NCBI GenBank assembly: GCA_021204885.1
Contig: JAJPYP010000253.1
Coordinates: forward strand, 1-5,957
DNA: 5,957 nt
Origin: Prevotellaceae bacterium
GTDB taxonomy: Bacteria > Bacteroidota > Bacteroidia > Bacteroidales > Bacteroidaceae
Direction: 5' to 3'
Shown: piece by piece, positions 1 to 5,957 of the stretch
Position numbering within the stretch: position 1 is the first letter of the stretch
Layout: every line of letters starts with the position of its first letter
Made by a program: the position numbers and the translations under genes
The notes under the pieces: generated by a model
What the model was told of the DNA's origin: nothing
What the model saw: the letters and a program-made list of their open reading frames with translations, nothing else
The model's database searches: none

Positions 1-444
1 GAAGAGGTCTACATGGCCGTGGTGGAGTCGGAACTGGAACTCCTTTCCGAGAAGATGCGGCGTGTGGGCGAAGAGGTGGACGTGGCCCCCGATTTCAAAC
101 TCATGCAGATGATATACACCCGCTTGGACGGCATCAAGGAGAGCGTCTACCGCAACGGCACGCTCCGCGCCGACTTCTTCCGCGATATATGGCGGGTGGA
201 GAAGGTGCGCAAGCGTTTCGACGCCACCGAAGTGCAGCTCTTTAAAGACGTGTTGCGCGAAGGGATGGAGAAAGGGACATTCCTGATTGACGATTTAGAC
301 ATGACCGCCGAAATCGTGCACTATTGCGTGAAGGGCATCGAGGTGCCTTATATCCGTGGACAGATAGGCGCCCATTTAGACATCAACGTGAAGCGGGGCT
401 ATGTGGCCCGCCTCGTGCTCCGGGCATTGGGCGTTAATCGATAA
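1..444 (+). CDS. TetR/AcrR-family transcriptional regulator, C-terminal part (5' end outside window)
   Basis: The reading frame is open from the first base (E-E-V-Y-M-A-V-V...), so the ATG at 13 is probably an internal methionine and the gene starts upstream. The opening residues resemble the '(S/N)KEELF.AV' segment that follows the helix-turn-helix in TetR-family repressors. On that reading the missing part is the DNA-binding domain of roughly 45-50 residues. The remaining ~147 residues are helical and charged, ending in YVARLVLRALGVNR, as expected of the variable ligand-binding and dimerisation domain. No ligand can be inferred. The stop lies 31 bases before the FabG-type gene with no visible promoter between, so the two are probably co-transcribed. 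Whether it regulates the downstream reductase is unknown. Family confidence is moderate because the diagnostic HTH is not in the window. Confidence 0.72.
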   Translation, partial: EEVYMAVVESELELLSEKMRRVGEEVDVAPDFKLMQMIYTRLDGIKESVYRNGTLRADFFRDIWRVEKVRKRFDATEVQLFKDVLREGMEKGTFLIDDLDMTAEIVHYCVKGIEVPYIRGQIGAHLDINVKRGYVARLVLRALGVNR

Positions 445-475
445 CCGATAACAACATTACCAATTATAAGAAACT

Positions 476-1222
476 ATGGGATTATTAGAAGGAAAAACCG
501 CGATTATAACGGGTGCCGCCCGTGGCATCGGGAAAGCCATCGCATTGAAATTCGCCCGTGAAGGGGCGAACATCGCGTTTACGGACTTGGTGATTGACGA
601 GACGGGCCAGGCTACGGCCGACGAGATTGCCGCTTTGGGCGTGAAGGTGAAAGGGTATGCCTCCAATGCGGCCGACTTTGAAGACACGGCCAAGGTGGTG
701 GAGGCCATTCATGCCGACTTCGGACGCATCGACATCTTGGTGAACAATGCCGGCATCACCCGCGACGGCTTGATGATGCGCATGAGCGAGAAGCAGTGGG
801 ACATGGTGATAGGCGTGAACTTGAAGTCCGCCTTCAATTTCATCCATGCCTGTACGCCCATCATGATGCGCCAACGTGCCGGCAGCATCATCAACATGGC
901 CTCTGTGGTGGGCGTTCACGGCAATGCCGGGCAGGCCAACTACGCCGCCTCGAAGGCGGGCTTGATTGCCTTGGCCAAGTCCATCGCACAAGAGATGGGC
1001 TCGCGCGGCATCCGCGCCAACGCCATCGCCCCGGGCTTCATCATCACCGCCATGACCGACGCGCTCTCTGACGAGGTAAAGGCCGAATGGTGCAAGAAGA
1101 TACCCCTGCGCCGTGGCGGTACGCCCGAGGACGTGGCCAACATCGCCACCTTCCTCGCATCCGACATGTCGTCCTACGTATCGGGGCAGGTCATCCAAGT
1201 GGATGGCGGCATGAACATGTAG
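476..1222 (+). CDS. fabG: 3-oxoacyl-[acyl-carrier-protein] reductase, FabG-type SDR
   Basis: This is a 248-residue classical short-chain dehydrogenase/reductase, the normal FabG length. FabG reduces 3-oxoacyl-ACP to 3-hydroxyacyl-ACP with NADPH in the cytosolic fatty-acid elongation cycle. Visible motifs are the cofactor-binding TGAARGIG at 12-19, NNAG at 90-93, and a catalytic tetrad of N115, S143, Y156 and K160 (in YAASK). The stretch around GNAGQANYAASKAG and the C-terminal VSGQVIQVDGGMNM are typical of true FabG proteins. The ATG at 476 places the Rossmann motif at the usual distance from the N-terminus. It follows the TetR gene by 31 bases and precedes the pseudouridine synthase by 21. 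It is not beside other fab genes here, so a dedicated role on another 3-oxoacyl substrate cannot be excluded. Confidence 0.93.
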   Translation: MGLLEGKTAIITGAARGIGKAIALKFAREGANIAFTDLVIDETGQATADEIAALGVKVKGYASNAADFEDTAKVVEAIHADFGRIDILVNNAGITRDGLMMRMSEKQWDMVIGVNLKSAFNFIHACTPIMMRQRAGSIINMASVVGVHGNAGQANYAASKAGLIALAKSIAQEMGSRGIRANAIAPGFIITAMTDALSDEVKAEWCKKIPLRRGGTPEDVANIATFLASDMSSYVSGQVIQVDGGMNM

Positions 1223-1243
1223 ACTTCGCCAATACGACCCCAA

Positions 1244-1909
1244 GTGACTGTCGTTTACGAAGACAACCATATCATCATCGTCAACAAGACCGCTTCCGAG
1301 ATTGTCCAAGGAGACAAGACGGGCGACACACCGCTTTCAGAGACGCTCAAACAGTACCTGAAAGAGAAGTATCACAAGCCCGGCAATGTCTTCATCGGTG
1401 TAGTGCACCGGTTGGACCGTCCCGTAAGCGGCCTTGTTCTCTTTGCCAAGACCGGCAAGGCGCTCGCCCGCTTGAACGAGATGTTCAAGAACGGCGAGGT
1501 GAAAAAGACCTATTGGGCCATCGTGAAGAACGTGCCCGACCCCACGGAGGGCACGCTCACGCACTACCTCGTGCGCAACGAGAAGCTCAACAAGAGCCGT
1601 GCCTACGACCGCGAGGTGCCGGGCGGCAAGCGGGCCGTGCTGCACTATCGGCTCATCGGCCGTTCCCAAAACTACTTTCTGTTGGAAGTGGCGTTGATGA
1701 CGGGCCGTCACCACCAGATACGTTGCCAGCTCTCCAAGATAGGCTGCCCCATCAAGGGCGACTTGAAATACGGCTTTCCCCGTTCCAATCCCGATGGCGG
1801 CATCAGCCTGCATGCCCGCTCCATGAGCTTCATCCATCCCGTTTCCAAAGAGCCGATAGCCGTCGAAGCCCCCGTGCCCGATGACAATCTGTGGAACAGC
1901 TTCGCTTGA
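1244..1909 (+). CDS. RluA-family pseudouridine synthase
   Basis: This 221-residue protein converts specific uridines to pseudouridine in structured RNA (family knowledge: 23S rRNA and/or tRNA). The signature VHRLDRPVSGLVLFAKT lies at about 54-70, with catalytic aspartate D58 in HRLD. The conserved LEVALMTGRHHQIRCQLS segment is at 147-164, followed by GCPIKGDLKYG. There is no N-terminal S4 RNA-binding domain; the protein begins directly with VVYEDNHIIIVNK, so it is a stand-alone catalytic domain like RluA, RluC-lacking-S4 or TruC types. The exact target base cannot be told from sequence. The start is GTG: no ATG exists in frame between the fabG stop and this point, and the GTG gives the expected N-terminus. 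It shares the reading frame of fabG, separated by one TAG and 21 bases. Confidence 0.92.
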   Translation: MTVVYEDNHIIIVNKTASEIVQGDKTGDTPLSETLKQYLKEKYHKPGNVFIGVVHRLDRPVSGLVLFAKTGKALARLNEMFKNGEVKKTYWAIVKNVPDPTEGTLTHYLVRNEKLNKSRAYDREVPGGKRAVLHYRLIGRSQNYFLLEVALMTGRHHQIRCQLSKIGCPIKGDLKYGFPRSNPDGGISLHARSMSFIHPVSKEPIAVEAPVPDDNLWNSFA

Positions 1910-1963
1910 GAAGCTCGCCGCATGGTAGTGCAAAAGCCGGCTTCAGCTCTCAGTGCCCGTTAC

Positions 1964-2085
1964 ACCCTAAGGAATGTGTTCCTTATACCCTAAGGAATGT
2001 ATTCCTTATACCCTAAGGAATGTAATCCTTGCACCCTAAGGAATGTATTCCTTATACCCTAAGGAATGTATTCCTTGCACCCTAA
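1964..2085. repeat. Tandem array of a 23-bp palindromic repeat (5 full copies plus 1 partial)
   Basis: Copies begin at 1964, 1987, 2010, 2033 and 2056, exactly 23 bases apart, with a truncated ACCCTAA at 2079-2085. Each full copy reads ACCCT, then the dyad AAGGAATGTATTCCTT, then a 2-base linker that is AT or GC. The dyad has 7-bp arms around GT and could also fold as a 6-bp stem with a TGTA loop. Copy 1 (GTGTTCC) and copy 3 (GTAATCC) vary only near the centre, while the outer AAGGA/TCCTT arms are kept in all five. The array lies between the end of the pseudouridine synthase gene (1909) and the promoter of the small secreted protein gene. Its function is unknown: an operator array, RNA hairpins at the 3' end of the upstream transcript, or a species-specific dispersed repeat are all possible. 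Confidence 0.95.
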
Positions 2086-2115
2086 CTATTCATTGCGCCC
2101 CAACTTTTAATAAAA

Positions 2116-2159
2116 ATATCTTTTTTCTACCAAAACGCTTGTTTATATATCTTTTTTCT
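2116..2159. repeat. 13-bp direct repeat flanking a promoter
   Basis: ATATCTTTTTTCT occurs at 2116-2128 and again, identical, at 2147-2159. The copies start 31 bases apart, close to three turns of DNA. The second copy lies inside the spacer of the proposed promoter, ending just before its -7 element; the first lies upstream of the -33 position. The geometry would suit a dimeric regulator or a promoter duplication, but AT-rich DNA repeats easily and no known operator is recognised. Confidence 0.6.
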
Positions 2160-2168
2160 GTATCTTTG
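2138..2168 (+). promoter_or_regulatory. Predicted Bacteroidetes-type promoter for the small secreted protein gene
   Basis: The -7 element TATCTTTG (2161-2168) fits TAnnTTTG exactly. CTTG at 2138-2141 is a three-of-four match to the -33 TTTG, with a 19-base spacer, which is the usual spacing. The start of transcription would fall around 2175, giving a leader of about 80 bases before the ATG at 2257. It lies just downstream of the palindromic repeat array. Confidence 0.7.
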
Positions 2169-2242
2169 CAGCGATATATAACAAAAATGCAAATGAGTTT
2201 TAATATTCTCGGCTTATTCGCATTAGTATTTCAGGGAATTAT

Positions 2243-2248
2243 AAGGAG
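2243..2248 (+). promoter_or_regulatory. Strong Shine-Dalgarno sequence (AAGGAG)
   Basis: AAGGAG sits 8 bases before the ATG at 2257, an unusually canonical ribosome binding site for this window, where other genes have weak ones. It fixes the start of the small secreted protein and suggests efficient translation. Confidence 0.75.
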
Positions 2249-2256
2249 TTTTACAG

Positions 2257-2652
2257 ATGAAAAAAGCTTTTATTTGTTTATTGGCATTATTATTAGGTGC
2301 TAAAATGTATTCTTATCCCGTTGTCGAGTACGATAAGGGAAATTCCACTGCAAAAGCATCTTTAAAGGTCGCTTCTCAGAGTGTAACAAGTGAATCTATT
2401 TATTATGGTGCAAAAGCTTCAGGAAAAGCTAATAACCCTTGCAAGGGTCCAACAATAAGGGTATGCGGAGTGGTTAAAACGCAATTAATACCTATTGACG
2501 AAAGTCAAACTGCAGTTTCGAAACAAACAACAGATGCTGATGGTAAAATAATATCTACTTCATATTATGTAATTGATAAGCCAATTGAAGAAGCAAAAGA
2601 GATTATAGAAACCCAAACTCTCAGTGCAGGTGGAAAAATTGTAGATAAATGA
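2257..2652 (+). CDS. Small predicted secreted protein of unknown function
   Basis: This 131-residue protein is not recognised. The N-terminus MKKAFICLLALLLG is a clear signal peptide: two lysines, a hydrophobic core at about 4-14, and cleavage plausibly after A15 or S19. C7 is too early for a lipobox, so type I processing is expected. The mature part, about 112-116 residues, is rich in Ser, Thr, Lys and Ala and has two cysteines, C62 and C70 (spacing CX7C), which could form a disulphide in the periplasm or outside the cell. Base composition is visibly more AT-rich than the flanking housekeeping genes. The next gene begins four bases after its stop, so the two are almost certainly one operon. 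Bacteroidales often pair small secreted proteins, such as the NVEALA family, with propeller-like secreted proteins. The arrangement is reminiscent, but the NVEALA motif is absent. Confidence 0.85.
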   Translation: MKKAFICLLALLLGAKMYSYPVVEYDKGNSTAKASLKVASQSVTSESIYYGAKASGKANNPCKGPTIRVCGVVKTQLIPIDESQTAVSKQTTDADGKIISTSYYVIDKPIEEAKEIIETQTLSAGGKIVDK

Positions 2653-2656
2653 AATA

Positions 2657-4438
2657 ATGATTATGAAATGGTTTTTATTGCTTTTGATGTTCCCGTTAAT
2701 CTCATTCGCCCAGAATGTAGATTATATAGAGGAGATGGAGAATAATGACCTAAGAATCAGACAGAAGCCTTCGACAGAAAGGCTTCTGTCTGATTATTTA
2801 AGGTCCGTTCCTATTCAAGAAGATACTGTCTATGCGATCCTGTATATCCCGGCAGCGTGTTACCGGTGCGAGGCCGCCATACCTGCCTTTTATAAGCTGC
2901 TGAAAAACAACAATCCCGACAACAAGATGCTTCTTGTCTCGGCATACGCCGATTCCACCGCTGCGGCTTGGTACAACAATCGGAGTAATTATAAGGCCGA
3001 CTATTATTTATACGACACCGATTCAGACTATAAGAATATATTCAGCTTCAACACCGGGTTTATAGACGGCCTTTACGTGTTGAAGCTTTGTCCTGCATCG
3101 GGAACCCTCATTACAGGAGGAGAATATACCTACTTGGGTGAAGATTTCATCAGCCAATTGGTAGCCTGCCGCACAAGAATGGCTCCCTATTCATATCCCG
3201 CCGACACAGAGGAATACGCTTTCGTGAACCATACGGAGGACATTTCTCCGTATCCGTGGAAGACGGCGGAATATCCATTGGCCTTGAACGAGGATGTGCC
3301 CGTTTCCACGGTTTACGACATTCCCAAGATTGAAAACGGACGTCTTTTCTTTAACGACATGCTGAACAACGGTATAATGTATTTTCAATTGGATGAAGGG
3401 CGATATGTCTACAAGGATCTTATTCAAGCCAATGATGACGAGAAGACGCGGTTCGTGGAGATTTCCGACTCGCTGTTTCAAGAGGTGACAGCTGCGGGGC
3501 AAGTGTTTTACATCGCGCTCTCCTCCAATATGCTTGATGAAAGGCACCTTGCCGTGTCCTACTCCTTGCCTATGATTTTATCGGAGATAGTGGGGGAGGT
3601 AACCCGCATCAGTTTTTATAATGCCCCGGCAATCTTGATTCGTGATATGGAGACTTCCGAGCCCGGGAAGATGGTAACGCCGGAGGTCTACGGACAAGAA
3701 GATTATTTCTACAAGCATTTTACCTTCGACATATTCGACGACAAGTTATGGGTCGGCTGCCAAAAGCTGACATGGCCCATGGATGGCTTTGAGAGAGAAG
3801 ACGTGGAAGGGAATGTCGAGCTGGACCCATTCAACGAGGGGTTTTATGACACGTTCAATCCCATAGTGGCTTCTTTCGACATAGACAGCGGCGCATGCGA
3901 CGGGCTCTACGGGAGCTTGGACGACTCCCAACGGAAGAGCAGGACAGGGTATTGGTATACAAACAACATATTCGCCCATTATAAGGAGTCTTTCCTTTAT
4001 GCCAATGGATATACGGGGAAACTTTATGTTTCCGCTGACAATCATGTCGATGCGAGTAGATGCTACGATGTGTTTGACATGGATACGGCTTCATTCTCCG
4101 CTCCCGATTCAACCTTTTTTTATACACGTGAATACGGAAATCTGTATGACTCGAACTTCAACAGATGTATAACCGCCGTTAAAATGAACGAGACGCAAAT
4201 CTGTTGTTTGGTAAAATACGGGAACCCGGGCGAAGACGATTTCCTGCACGACAGGTATTCGTTCGTTACGGTCGACCGGGAGACAGGAGAGACACAGGAG
4301 CGTTTTCTTCCCGTCGTTACGCCTGAGATGACGTGCTTGGGATATGGCATCAGGAATGAACGGAATGCATTCAATCCATTCCTGTTCGTCAAAGACGCGA
4401 GCGGCCACAAAATCCTCGATTTGCAACTCTCAGAGTAG
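2657..4438 (+). CDS. Secreted protein with thioredoxin-like N-terminal domain and propeller-like C-terminal region
   Basis: This 593-residue protein begins with a signal peptide (MKWFLLLLMFPLISFA, predicted cleavage after A18) and has no lipobox cysteine, so it is probably periplasmic or exported. Residues ~57-170 look like a thioredoxin fold: strand VYAILYIP, then C68-Y-R-C71, a helix (EAAIPAFYKLL), strand KMLLVSAY and a late hairpin YVLKLCPASGTLITGG. CXXC sits where the TlpA/ResA active site lies, but the usual cis-proline loop is not obvious, so redox activity is uncertain. Residues ~190-593 are beta-rich with many aromatic and Asp/Asn/Gly turns (for example GRLFFNDM, DDKLWVGC, YTGKLYVSAD), resembling the TolB-like or six-bladed propeller proteins common in Bacteroidales. 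The start may be ATG 2657 or ATG 2663; the latter gives a more normal signal peptide (MKWF). It overlaps nothing and trails the small protein gene by four bases. Confidence 0.85.
   Translation: MIMKWFLLLLMFPLISFAQNVDYIEEMENNDLRIRQKPSTERLLSDYLRSVPIQEDTVYAILYIPAACYRCEAAIPAFYKLLKNNNPDNKMLLVSAYADSTAAAWYNNRSNYKADYYLYDTDSDYKNIFSFNTGFIDGLYVLKLCPASGTLITGGEYTYLGEDFISQLVACRTRMAPYSYPADTEEYAFVNHTEDISPYPWKTAEYPLALNEDVPVSTVYDIPKIENGRLFFNDMLNNGIMYFQLDEGRYVYKDLIQANDDEKTRFVEISDSLFQEVTAAGQVFYIALSSNMLDERHLAVSYSLPMILSEIVGEVTRISFYNAPAILIRDMETSEPGKMVTPEVYGQEDYFYKHFTFDIFDDKLWVGCQKLTWPMDGFEREDVEGNVELDPFNEGFYDTFNPIVASFDIDSGACDGLYGSLDDSQRKSRTGYWYTNNIFAHYKESFLYANGYTGKLYVSADNHVDASRCYDVFDMDTASFSAPDSTFFYTREYGNLYDSNFNRCITAVKMNETQICCLVKYGNPGEDDFLHDRYSFVTVDRETGETQERFLPVVTPEMTCLGYGIRNERNAFNPFLFVKDASGHKILDLQLSE
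2755..2795. repeat. Perfect 17-bp inverted repeat inside the coding sequence
   Basis: AATCAGACAGAAGCCTT (2755-2771) is followed by a 7-base loop (2772-2778) and its exact reverse complement at 2779-2795. After one mismatch (2754/2796), two more pairs (2752-2753 with 2797-2798) extend the stem. It encodes residues about 33-47 of the thioredoxin/propeller protein, just after the signal peptide, without breaking the frame. In mRNA it would form a very stable hairpin some 100 bases after the start codon. No T-run follows, so it is not a canonical terminator. Confidence 0.95.
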
Positions 4439-4552
4439 CACGCCACTCCCATTACGAACCTCACGTCGTTCATTCGTTTCCCCATTATATGTAGGGAACC
4501 ATACTTTTTATATATAGACATTATACCTTATTATATATATAGCGCCATTCCC

Positions 4553-4583
4553 TTTCATTTTCCGTTTATTTGCCTTATATTTG
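4553..4583 (+). promoter_or_regulatory. Predicted promoter of the carbonic anhydrase gene
   Basis: TATATTTG at 4576-4583 is an exact TAnnTTTG -7 element. TTTC at 4553-4556 matches three of four bases of the -33 TTTG with a 19-base spacer. The start of transcription would be near 4590, about 20 bases before the ATG. Just upstream lie two alternating TA tracts (4509-4516 and 4532-4541), which could act as AT-rich upstream elements. Confidence 0.7.
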
Positions 4584-4611
4584 TGAGGCATAACTTTAAA
4601 CGAAAATCGCC

Positions 4612-5154
4612 ATGATTGAAAAGATTTTGGAGCACAACAGACATTTTGTGGAATCGAAGGAGTATGAACGGTACAAGACGGGCAAATATCCCAAGATGAA
4701 GATAGCCATATTGACCTGCATGGACACCCGCTTGACCGAACTCTTGCCGGCCGCATTGGGCATCCATAACGGTGACGTGAAGATTATCAAGAACGCCGGC
4801 GGCGTCGTTACCGACAAGTTCGGCGAAGCCATCCGCAGCTTGCTCGTGGCCATTTATGAATTGGGCGTGACGGACGTGATGGTCATTGCCCACACCGATT
4901 GCGGTGCCTGCAAGATGAACGCCTTCGAGATGGAGGAGCGGATGGAGGCACGCGGCATCAGTCGGGAGACCATCGACCTGATAAACGATTGCGGCGTGGA
5001 CTTGAACACTTGGCTGCAAGGCTTCGGCGACACCGAAAGGGCGGTAAGGCAGACGGTCGACCTCATCGCCACGCACCCGCTCATTCCCCGCGACATCCGC
5101 GTCTATGGCTTCATCATGGATACGGTAACGGGGGCGCTTGCCGAGGTGAGGTAG
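4612..5154 (+). CDS. Beta-class carbonic anhydrase
   Basis: This 180-residue cytosolic protein would catalyse reversible hydration of CO2 to bicarbonate. The zinc-site residues of the beta class are visible: C36 in TCMDTR, with D38 and R40 forming the Asp-Arg dyad, then H94 and C97 in AHTDCGACKM. The NAGG segment at 61-64 is also conserved. The length and the CMDTR...HTDCG pattern resemble the short single-domain bacterial members (like Mycobacterium Rv1284 or Bacillus YvdA) rather than the larger E. coli Can/CynT type. No signal peptide is present. The ATG at 4612 gives a normal N-terminus and lies behind its own promoter; the Shine-Dalgarno match is weak. It stands alone between the secreted-protein cassette and thrA. 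A physiological link could be bicarbonate supply for carboxylases feeding oxaloacetate and hence aspartate, but that is inference. Confidence 0.92.
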   Translation: MIEKILEHNRHFVESKEYERYKTGKYPKMKIAILTCMDTRLTELLPAALGIHNGDVKIIKNAGGVVTDKFGEAIRSLLVAIYELGVTDVMVIAHTDCGACKMNAFEMEERMEARGISRETIDLINDCGVDLNTWLQGFGDTERAVRQTVDLIATHPLIPRDIRVYGFIMDTVTGALAEVR

Positions 5155-5180
5155 AAAGAAAAGCTGTTTTTTGCCTCTTT

Positions 5181-5222
5181 TATCACAAAAAAGTGGTAAT
5201 GTGTGATATAATGTAGGTTTTT
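5181..5222 (+). terminator. Possible weak terminator after carbonic anhydrase gene
   Basis: TATCACA (5181-5187) and its reverse complement TGTGATA (5202-5208) could form a 7-bp stem with a 14-base loop, followed ten bases later by a T-run at 5218-5222. The stem is AT-rich and the T-run is not adjacent, so this is a weak call. The same inverted repeat lies close to the -33 region of the thrA promoter and could equally be an operator. Confidence 0.25.
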
Positions 5223-5235
5223 ATTCTTATTTTTG
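5202..5235 (+). promoter_or_regulatory. Predicted promoter of the thrA leader transcript
   Basis: TATTTTTG at 5228-5235 matches the TAnnTTTG -7 element exactly. The -33 element is poor: TGTG at 5202-5205 is the nearest fit, with a 22-base spacer, slightly longer than usual. Transcription from here would start near 5242 and give a leader of about 220 bases before thrA, including the leader peptide at 5267. Confidence 0.5.
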
Positions 5236-5266
5236 CATCACTTTTTAGATGATGTAGAGATAAGAT

Positions 5267-5335
5267 ATGAACTACTGCTTTCAACATACAGTCACTTGCA
5301 TGGGCACCATGACGACCCTTAGGGGTTGGGGATAG
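5267..5335 (+). CDS. Candidate thr operon leader peptide (22 codons, Thr/Met-rich)
   Basis: A short frame starts at ATG 5267, about 25 bases after the predicted transcription start, and ends at TAG 5333-5335. It begins MNYCFQ, continues HTVTCMGTMTT and ends LRGWG. Five of the 22 residues are threonine (8, 10, 14, 16, 17), and methionines 12 and 15 are interspersed; the Thr/Met cluster at 8-17 sits directly before and within predicted RNA hairpins. The next gene is thrA, whose pathway makes homoserine, threonine and methionine. This matches the logic of the E. coli thrL leader (a Thr/Ile-rich peptide before thrABC), where ribosome stalling at scarce codons controls read-through. No clear Shine-Dalgarno sequence precedes it, which is common in Bacteroidetes. 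Being short, it could arise by chance, but composition, position and neighbour agree. Confidence 0.68.
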   Translation: MNYCFQHTVTCMGTMTTLRGWG

Positions 5336-5421
5336 TTTATGTGTTTCTACGTGTTACACCAATTTTTCAAGCAGTTTTCTTTTTTAATCAGAGTGTCGTT
5401 CCGCTTCGCTGTGACGAAGTG
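5299..5421 (+). promoter_or_regulatory. Candidate thrA attenuator region with several hairpins
   Basis: Within the leader transcript, CATGG (5299-5303) pairs with CCATG (5307-5311). Next, CGACCC (5313-5318) pairs with GGGTTG (5323-5328) around TTAG, with one G-U pair; both hairpins overlap the Thr/Met codons of the leader peptide. An alternative, TTGG (5326-5329) with CCAA (5359-5362), extendable by G-U pairs, would compete with the second hairpin and is followed by a T-run at 5363-5367. A longer T-tract, interrupted once by C, runs 5375-5385. A further 7-bp stem, CGCTTCG/CGAAGTG (5402-5408 with 5415-5421), lies before thrA. No classic GC-rich hairpin directly abuts a T-tract, so the mechanism (transcriptional or translational) is not settled by eye. 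Confidence 0.45.
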
Positions 5422-5464
5422 TGCGCATGCAGTGTTTTACCGTTAATATAATAGCAACCAAATA

Positions 5465-5957
5465 ATGAAAGTCATGAAATTCGGCGGAACGTCCGTAGGT
5501 TCCGCAAGCAGTCTTTTAAACGTGAAGCGTATCGTAGAGGCGACCACCGAGCCGGTTATTGTTGTGGTTTCCGCCTTGGGTGGTGTGACCGACCGGTTAA
5601 TCCATATCTCGCAGATGGCGGCGGCGGGCGATGCCGCTTACCAAGCCGAATACCGCGCCGTGGTGTACCGCCACGTGGCGTTGGTGAGCGAGGTGTTTCC
5701 CGAAGGGGAGGAGCGCGTGCAGTTGCAAGGCCAGATAGGGGAGTTGCTCGACGAGCTCAAGGACATCTTCCAAGGCATCTACCTCATCAAGGACCTTTCA
5801 CAGAAAACGTCGGATGCCATCACCAGTTATGGCGAGCGGCTCTCTTCCATCATCGTCTCCCGGCTCACGGGGGCGCGACTCTTTGATGCCCGCCTCTTCG
5901 TCAAGACCGAGAAGAAGCACTCCAAGCACCTTTTGGATGCCGAACTGACCAACGCGC
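5465..5957 (+). CDS. thrA: Bifunctional aspartate kinase/homoserine dehydrogenase, N-terminal part (3' end outside window)
   Basis: The first 164 codons are present. They encode the amino-terminal aspartokinase domain, which phosphorylates aspartate in the first step of threonine, methionine and lysine synthesis in the cytosol. Visible motifs are MKFGGTSVG at 4-12, VSALGGVTD at 35-43 and SDAITSYGERLSS at 116-128, the last typical of kinases fused to homoserine dehydrogenase; FDARLFVKTEKKH follows. The homoserine dehydrogenase half would lie beyond the window, so a monofunctional aspartokinase cannot be strictly excluded, although the sequence looks like the Bacteroidales ThrA form. The ATG at 5465 begins right at the conserved strand. 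Upstream are 310 gene-free bases holding a promoter, a Thr/Met-rich leader peptide and hairpins, suggesting attenuation control. Confidence 0.88.
   Translation, partial: MKVMKFGGTSVGSASSLLNVKRIVEATTEPVIVVVSALGGVTDRLIHISQMAAAGDAAYQAEYRAVVYRHVALVSEVFPEGEERVQLQGQIGELLDELKDIFQGIYLIKDLSQKTSDAITSYGERLSSIIVSRLTGARLFDARLFVKTEKKHSKHLLDAELTNA

Follow-up and report, generated by a model that had tools for sequence, protein, structure and literature searches.

The window (the whole stretch of DNA analysed: 5,957 nucleotides from a Prevotellaceae bacterium, GenBank assembly GCA_021204885.1, contig JAJPYP010000253.1, positions 1 to 5,957 of the forward strand) ends within a thrA gene, upstream of which lie a promoter element and a short open reading frame containing clustered threonine and methionine codons. 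The features from the promoter to thrA are:

5228..5235, + strand: -7 promoter element TATTTTTG, of the Bacteroidetes TAnnTTTG type (from its coordinates and the TAnnTTTG elements of relatives)
5267..5335, + strand: putative leader peptide ORF encoding MNYCFQHTVTCMGTMTTLRGWG and a stop codon (from sequence, conservation, codon content, shuffles and pN/pS)
5288..5317, + strand: candidate control codons, Thr at residues 8, 10, 14, 16 and 17 and non-start Met at residues 12 and 15 (from sequence, and from an H-T-V-T-S-M-x-T-M block kept over 41 leaders)
5465..5957, + strand: thrA, 5′ part, aspartate kinase / homoserine dehydrogenase (from PF00696 and NCBIfam)

The frame has 22 codons, ends in TAG, and is separated by 31 nt from the end of the -7 element. 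Its five Thr and two further Met at residues 8-17 are exactly as an earlier note on this DNA had described them, and the placing of the frame between a promoter and thrA, also claimed there, is borne out by the positions of the -7 element (5228-5235) and the thrA start (5465). In dinucleotide shuffles of positions 5155-5464, an ATG-started frame of 11-46 aa with at least five Thr and at least two further Met arose in 9 of 5000 cases, and one with at least five Thr alone in 34 of 2000. In 40 of 41 loci, the window included, a TAnnTTTG element lies 50-170 nt 5′ of the leader stop, and because a carbonic anhydrase gene precedes the promoter in the window, the leader is probably the start of a new transcription unit.

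The window thrA encodes an amino acid kinase domain (PF00696), and its best NCBIfam match is bifunctional aspartate kinase/homoserine dehydrogenase I. It scores under the whole-protein cut-off of that model because the window ends within the gene; a full-length B. fragilis ThrA relative clears the same cut-off. Elsewhere in the window, two adjoining ORFs at 2257-2652 and 2657-4438 (131 and 593 aa) have no Pfam match at E <= 0.001.

Conservation and coding constraint of the leader frame

The ThrA-relative loci, 80 in all, are the best of a longer list obtained by a scan with one genome per species. Of the 42 nearest thrA loci, 40 have a counterpart leader, a short Thr-rich frame with the consensus M(M)KYYPHTVTSMCTMTLRG that ends at the same RNA hairpin, and in the other two (L032 and L040, with 450 and 283 nt upstream) no part of the leader was found, neither frame nor RNA. 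A Thr/Met-rich short frame before thrA, which the earlier note proposed to look for across the Bacteroidales, is thus conserved in the nearest relatives, and its conservation throughout the order is not supported: loci L043-L080 (Prevotella, Paraprevotella and Dysgonomonad types, and some further Bacteroidaceae types) have no similar frame in the 450 nt before thrA, an unrelated Thr-containing frame is present in 13 of these 38, and in 26 the last TAnnTTTG lies at most 111 nt from thrA. The pattern that would speak against a leader peptide – relatives without the frame, or a frame broken while the leader is kept – was not seen among the nearest loci, L032 and L040 being without the whole leader.

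Over all 41 leaders, with no picking by sequence, pN/pS is 0.259 (820 pairs), and it is 0.181 in the 339 pairs at least 75% identical and 0.127 in the 124 pairs at least 85% identical, the pairs not being independent. By this measure the leader codons are under purifying selection. An earlier value of 0.184 was replaced, because its 18 leaders came from a pattern fixing most Thr positions. The openness of the frame alone says little, since a shift of two bases also meets no stop in 40 of 41 loci; a shift of one base is stop-free in none. Thr columns hold Thr in 37/41, 38/41 and 29/41 leaders (the last with Met in 6), and Met columns hold Met in 37/41 and 28/40 (the last with Thr in 6). As far as sequence can tell, the locus has what characterizes an attenuation leader, namely a short coding ORF with clustered end-product codons before an operon.

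A larger set comprised 145 loci, with the motif present in 124 (112 before thrA, 10 before the kinase gene described below, and 2 unassigned) and not recovered by pattern in 21; 17 loci were read by eye, and 13 (7 kinase, 6 thrA) were added for the composition count. Left out of that count were L032 and L040 (no leader), L221 (degenerate), L234 (none) and L147 (other downstream gene). The leader start was taken as the first in-frame ATG, such that some peptides may be too long, those of L145 and L160 being the least secure. Because the finder used on the nearest loci required at least three Thr and an RG, WG or LG end, and the frame was chosen by Thr count in the larger set, the Thr content of the leaders is partly selected, and the Met content is not.

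The RGWG-like ending, which the earlier note had offered as a signature, turned out to be local (4 of 124 motif-bearing loci: the window, L001, L108 and L226), and the conserved ending is LRG-stop; the usual TAG stop is TGG in the window. Endings in LRG, PRG, LWG or PWG are found in 102 of 112 thrA-type peptides. In L030 and L031 (B. fragilis group) an in-frame stretch ..MIGTQGTMGM.. adds Thr and Met codons to the leader, and in L147 a Thr/Met leader is followed, within the examined stretch, not by thrA but by a transposase-like frame (named by eye).

RNA structures around the frame

A series of predicted RNA structures lies around and within the frame; in the window these are:

5251..5263, + strand: 5′ strand of the P0 extension, a 5′UTR element (11 bp and -12.0 kcal/mol with 5341-5353)
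5265..5279, + strand: P0 5′ arm, start codon and first leader codons (duplex with 5327-5341)
5314..5327, + strand: H1, hairpin GACCC-UUAG-GGGUU over the ORF end (94.7% of cells paired in 72 sequences)
5327..5341, + strand: P0 3′ arm, post-stop segment (duplex with 5265-5279)
5340..5359, + strand: H2, hairpin with a conserved UACGY loop at 5348-5352 (both-side changes against shuffles)
5362..5368, + strand: U-rich tract after H2, candidate terminator tail (U-tract enrichment in loci without H3)
5402..5421, + strand: H4, GC-richer hairpin before thrA, role uncertain (from the fold; no U-tract directly after it)

H1 extends from the last Thr codon approximately to the stop. Its three C-G pairs are invariant in 72/72 sequences, a G-U pair is replaced by A-U in 14, and its loops are mostly UUAG, UUCG, CUCG and similar, which we take to belong largely to the stable YNMG tetraloop class. 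H2 has a 7-bp stem that varies on both sides (GUGUUUC/GAAACAC, GCGUAUC/GAUAUGC, GCGCUUC/GAAGCGC); in the window it is short, with two mismatches. Among 72 sequences, both-side changes in H2 number 31 cells against 15.9 in shuffles (0/500 as high), and the covariation score was likewise reached in 0/500. Two further H1/H2 covariation measures were not above shuffles (both-side-changed pairs, 126/500; further pair types, 491/500), nor was covariation in the first alignment of 41 sequences (99/500 as high); the 72 more diverse sequences did exceed their shuffles. All 41 leaders chosen by frame alone (41/41) have the UACGY loop, as do 61 of the 66 loci (L098-L163) that a covariance model, R1, recovered; the other five have UGCGU. 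R1 was built on UACGY, so its matches are biased toward that loop.

P0 is the pairing of the post-stop segment with the opening codons of the leader, which often read Lys-Tyr-Tyr-Pro; its mean over 92 loci is -10.4 kcal/mol for a locus's own segment against -7.2 for foreign and -7.1 for mononucleotide-shuffled segments; the own segment is better than 95% of foreign ones in 32 of the 92. In the window the advantage of P0 is modest, -9.7 against -6.3 for foreign segments, 13.5% of which pair as well, and in L001, the closest relative, P0 has no advantage over foreign segments. Upstream of P0, a Bacteroides-type 5′UTR element (ACGAUAGAAACA, GUAGAAACA; in the window AUGUAGAGAU) is complementary to the 5′ arm and loop of H2. 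The minimum free energy fold of the window contains this P0 extension, and the whole-leader fold energy is no better than that of shuffles (z 0.52). Over 98 loci the extension averages -8.0 against -6.1 when shuffled; as 25 of the 98 pass the 5% point of shuffles, the extension through the 5′UTR element is, by this comparison, not general.

A further hairpin, H3, directly follows H2 in 50/72 sequences by a strict rule (L131 doubtful) and was not seen in the window's group. Folding of the post-H2 region gives z = 0.54 in the window, which is not significant, and mean z of -0.76 in 15 loci of the window's group and -0.63 in 26 others.

Distribution of the element and its occurrence before a proposed homoserine kinase

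R1, built from 41 loci, matched 68 of 301 family genomes, with one match each, and a second covariance model, R2 (72 sequences), matched 103 of 399 genomes at E <= 1e-5. In the R2 table 95 genomes have a best E below 1e-16, with two strong places each in G783 and G748, and the element is usually one per genome. Across the order, R2 matched 45 of 393 genomes at E <= 0.001, of which the four strongest are genomes already known to carry the element. A search with the H2 motif matched the thr locus in 12/12 genomes with 0-1 mismatch; five extra matches with two mismatches were without such a leader and were read as coding, no annotation being used. Fifteen further R2 order loci were examined, L170, L181, L183 and L184 by pattern screen only, and ten (L169, L171-L179) by reading the sequence and looking for a thrA or kinase start, which L169 alone has. 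L169 shows an H1-like hairpin shortly before its thrA-type start and is a possible distant member; L168, also shortly before a thrA-type start, combines an H1-like hairpin with one that has a UACG loop, and its frame, which contains little Thr, ends in MTPFG... From the R1 and R2 counts in family and order, the element may be regarded as mainly a Bacteroidaceae feature, with L168 and L169 as possible distant members.

Nine R1 loci precede not thrA but a protein starting MKHIIILGDGMADWP. Full-length examples of this protein (L031, L241) clear the cut-offs of TIGR02535, 'proposed homoserine kinase', and of the phosphoglycerate mutase model NF003242. The kinase is followed by thrC in 4/4 kinase-type loci examined, the next large frame starting like B. 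fragilis threonine synthase by eye, and a thrC family model confirms threonine synthase after the kinase in L241 and L031; the B. fragilis operon order is thrA, proposed homoserine kinase, thrC. A ThrA frame of 810-862 aa lies elsewhere in 8/8 kinase-type genomes searched, and no leader with H1/H2 was seen upstream of the separate thrA in these eight. A frame before thrA in L247, with four Thr and two non-start Met, looks by eye like the end of an upstream gene common to L248 and L250. In the kinase-type L251 and L252, a different short frame ending in or near ..GFMP (MFYRDSKYEVSADYFARRIGFMP; ..HYARREGFMPEGAFHC) stands before thrA, by eye; it is possibly another leader type, and a pattern search of 40 other loci gave no clear counterpart. 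L229 and L230, two contigs of one genome, carry two kinase-type leaders with kinase genes, either a duplication or a mixed assembly.

The two leader types differ in their codons. Counting distinct last-22-residue stretches, among which near relatives remain, 99 thrA-type leaders contain 24.9% Thr, 14.2% Met and 2.9% Ile, with at least two non-start Met in 89 and at least four Thr in 92. The 16 kinase-type leaders contain 35.4% Thr, 0.3% Met and 8.9% Ile; two Met occur in none, and zero Met in 15. The difference in Met content has a Mann-Whitney p of 1.6e-10, uncorrected for relatedness, and most leaders of one type are from other clades than those of the second, which leaves gene and clade partly confounded. 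ThrA contributes to the synthesis of both Thr and Met; the kinase and threonine synthase act in the synthesis of Thr and, beyond it, of Ile. Met codons before thrA, and almost none before the post-branch kinase, therefore support dual Thr/Met sensing upstream of the branch point and single sensing downstream, in so far as codon content reports what is sensed; the hint in the earlier note that both end products are monitored gains support from the same contrast.

A proposed attenuation model and its alternatives

Ribosome-mediated attenuation best accounts for the element, given its codon content, its position, the promoter and the RNA that overlaps it, and on this sequence evidence we consider it probable that a Thr- and Met-sensing leader peptide controls the thr operon in this way. 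When charged Thr-tRNA or Met-tRNA is scarce, the ribosome would stall in the block of codons 8-17, leaving the 5′ part of the leader to pair with the post-stop segment and the H2 5′ strand (P0 and its extension); H2 would then not form, and RNA polymerase would read into thrA. With both amino acids ample, the ribosome would reach the end of the frame and block P0 pairing, such that H2 and the U-tract (H2-H3 in other clades) could form and transcription would stop. Termination, its polarity and the amino acid response of the leader are what we infer, with the polarity of the final H2/P0 switch the weakest step. If H2 and the U-tract are the terminator, stalling would give read-through, in the classical sense.

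In folding, the P0 extension competes with H2. A masking model of the window gives the P0 extension values of 0.9-1.0, and H2 about 0, with any Thr codon or Met 15 in the A site, and the extension 0.3 at Met 12; near the frame end P0 is lost and H2 reaches at most 0.4, with 0.0 at the stop. Evidence against the proposed switch comes from the 16 loci modelled, of which L002, L017, L019, L107 and L118 keep the extension at 0.8-0.9 even at the stop, and L009, L016 and L116 favour H2 without a ribosome; the weakness of H2 in the window also counts against it. L221, which retains H2 without H1 or an ATG-started frame, counts against the leader-peptide reading.

The frame might act otherwise than through intrinsic termination, by way of thrA translation initiation, Rho-dependent termination or mRNA stability, an output that we regard as unlikely while giving it some weight. 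Two scans found no terminator in the window leader, the U-tract after H3 is weak and clade-dependent (20/57 against 12.5 expected), and several loci have variable hairpins near the thrA start. Against such outputs, a U-tract directly follows H2 in 23 of the 31 loci without H3, where 5.4 would be expected; in L148 a run of six U comes after a hairpin; and the distance from the leader stop to thrA, about 90-240 nt, is long for translational coupling. Two other terminator candidates were rejected: H3 extended into the 3′ arm of H2, with at least three pairs in 22/54 loci against 16.3 expected from shuffled tails, and a conserved U-tailed hairpin near thrA, found in only 4/41 loci (L003, L005, L007 and L014; -14.6 to -20.3 kcal/mol).

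That the leader senses Thr only, the Met codons being incidental and constrained, for example, by the overlapping RNA, strikes us as distinctly unlikely. Both leader types contain more Thr than any other residue, fewer than two Met occur in 10 of the 99 thrA leaders (none in L007 and L213), and the clade difference between the types could make the Met contrast one of lineage rather than function. That contrast (14.2% against 0.3%) nevertheless argues for dual sensing, as do the two columns in which Met is kept and the longer leaders (L119, L037, L030-L031), whose added codons are also rich in Thr and Met.

It is improbable that the element is at heart an RNA around H2 that binds a protein or ligand, with the frame secondary to it. 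The H2 loop is kept (UACGY, some UGCGU) and its stem varies on both sides, unusual for a plain attenuator hairpin; but the codon constraint, the pathway-specific Thr/Met content and the joint absence of frame and RNA in L032 and L040 all count against this reading, and loop conservation could be accounted for by complementarity to the Bacteroides-type 5′UTR element. A chance open frame, although the leader is short and its +2 reading is stop-free almost as widely, has a negligible probability in view of the shuffles, the 40 conserved loci of 42 and a pN/pS well below 1.

The preferred reading, a Thr- and Met-sensing attenuator, resembles the enterobacterial thrL (RF00506) in having a short Thr-rich leader peptide before a thrA that heads the thr operon, and the same ribosome-mediated logic is expected. 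The codon set of the E. coli thr leader is Thr and Ile, whereas the Bacteroidaceae leader before thrA, in another phylum, has Thr and Met; its RNA also differs from that of thrL in the H1 tetraloop, the UACGY hairpin and the long-range helix. The window has no match at E <= 1 to any Rfam model, RF00506 Thr_leader and RF01692 Bacteroid-trp included. The only three matches obtained in eight related loci are at chance level, belong to unrelated families and fall outside the element, none being to RF01692. The Bacteroid-trp RNA is found upstream of trp genes and contains a frame with Trp codons. Table 1 of PMC2864571 lists it among candidate cis-regulatory RNAs of Bacteroidetes, and it differs from the present element in its pathway, by name, and in having no covariance match in the window or the eight related loci. 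Within the same phylum as the thrA leader, the available text of PMC9723704 reports clues for leader-peptide attenuation before amino acid operons in Flavobacterium psychrophilum, and that of PMC7366714 describes sORFs in long 5′UTRs of B. thetaiotaomicron as 'reminiscent of leader peptides'; these texts give no shared RNA element, and 'threonine' occurs 0 times in the two main texts. For the Thr leader RF00506, the available part of PMC3766115 gives 45 RNAs, and 2 regulogs for 11 Bacteroidaceae genomes. Leader-peptide attenuation is already established as a kind of control; a description of the Bacteroidaceae thr element, or of any thr leader in Bacteroidetes, was not found in the portions of the literature available to us; Lopatovskaya et al. 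2010 may hold an earlier prediction.

More broadly, we lean slightly towards a two-input attenuator family of Bacteroidaceae, in which leaders with Thr and Met codons guard the shared ThrA, and leaders with Thr (and some Ile) and no Met guard homoserine kinase and threonine synthase only. Its RNA switch would be unlike known thr leaders, with the first codons (and in the Bacteroides type the 5′UTR element) pairing with the post-stop segment and with the arm and loop of the UACGY hairpin. Such a family would extend leader-peptide control of Thr synthesis to dominant gut bacteria, for which we found little literature. It would also make dual end-product sensing by one leader testable, with a module that has or lacks Met codons according to the pathway step guarded, and, as a well-defined conserved RNA, usually one per genome, the element could join RNA family libraries.
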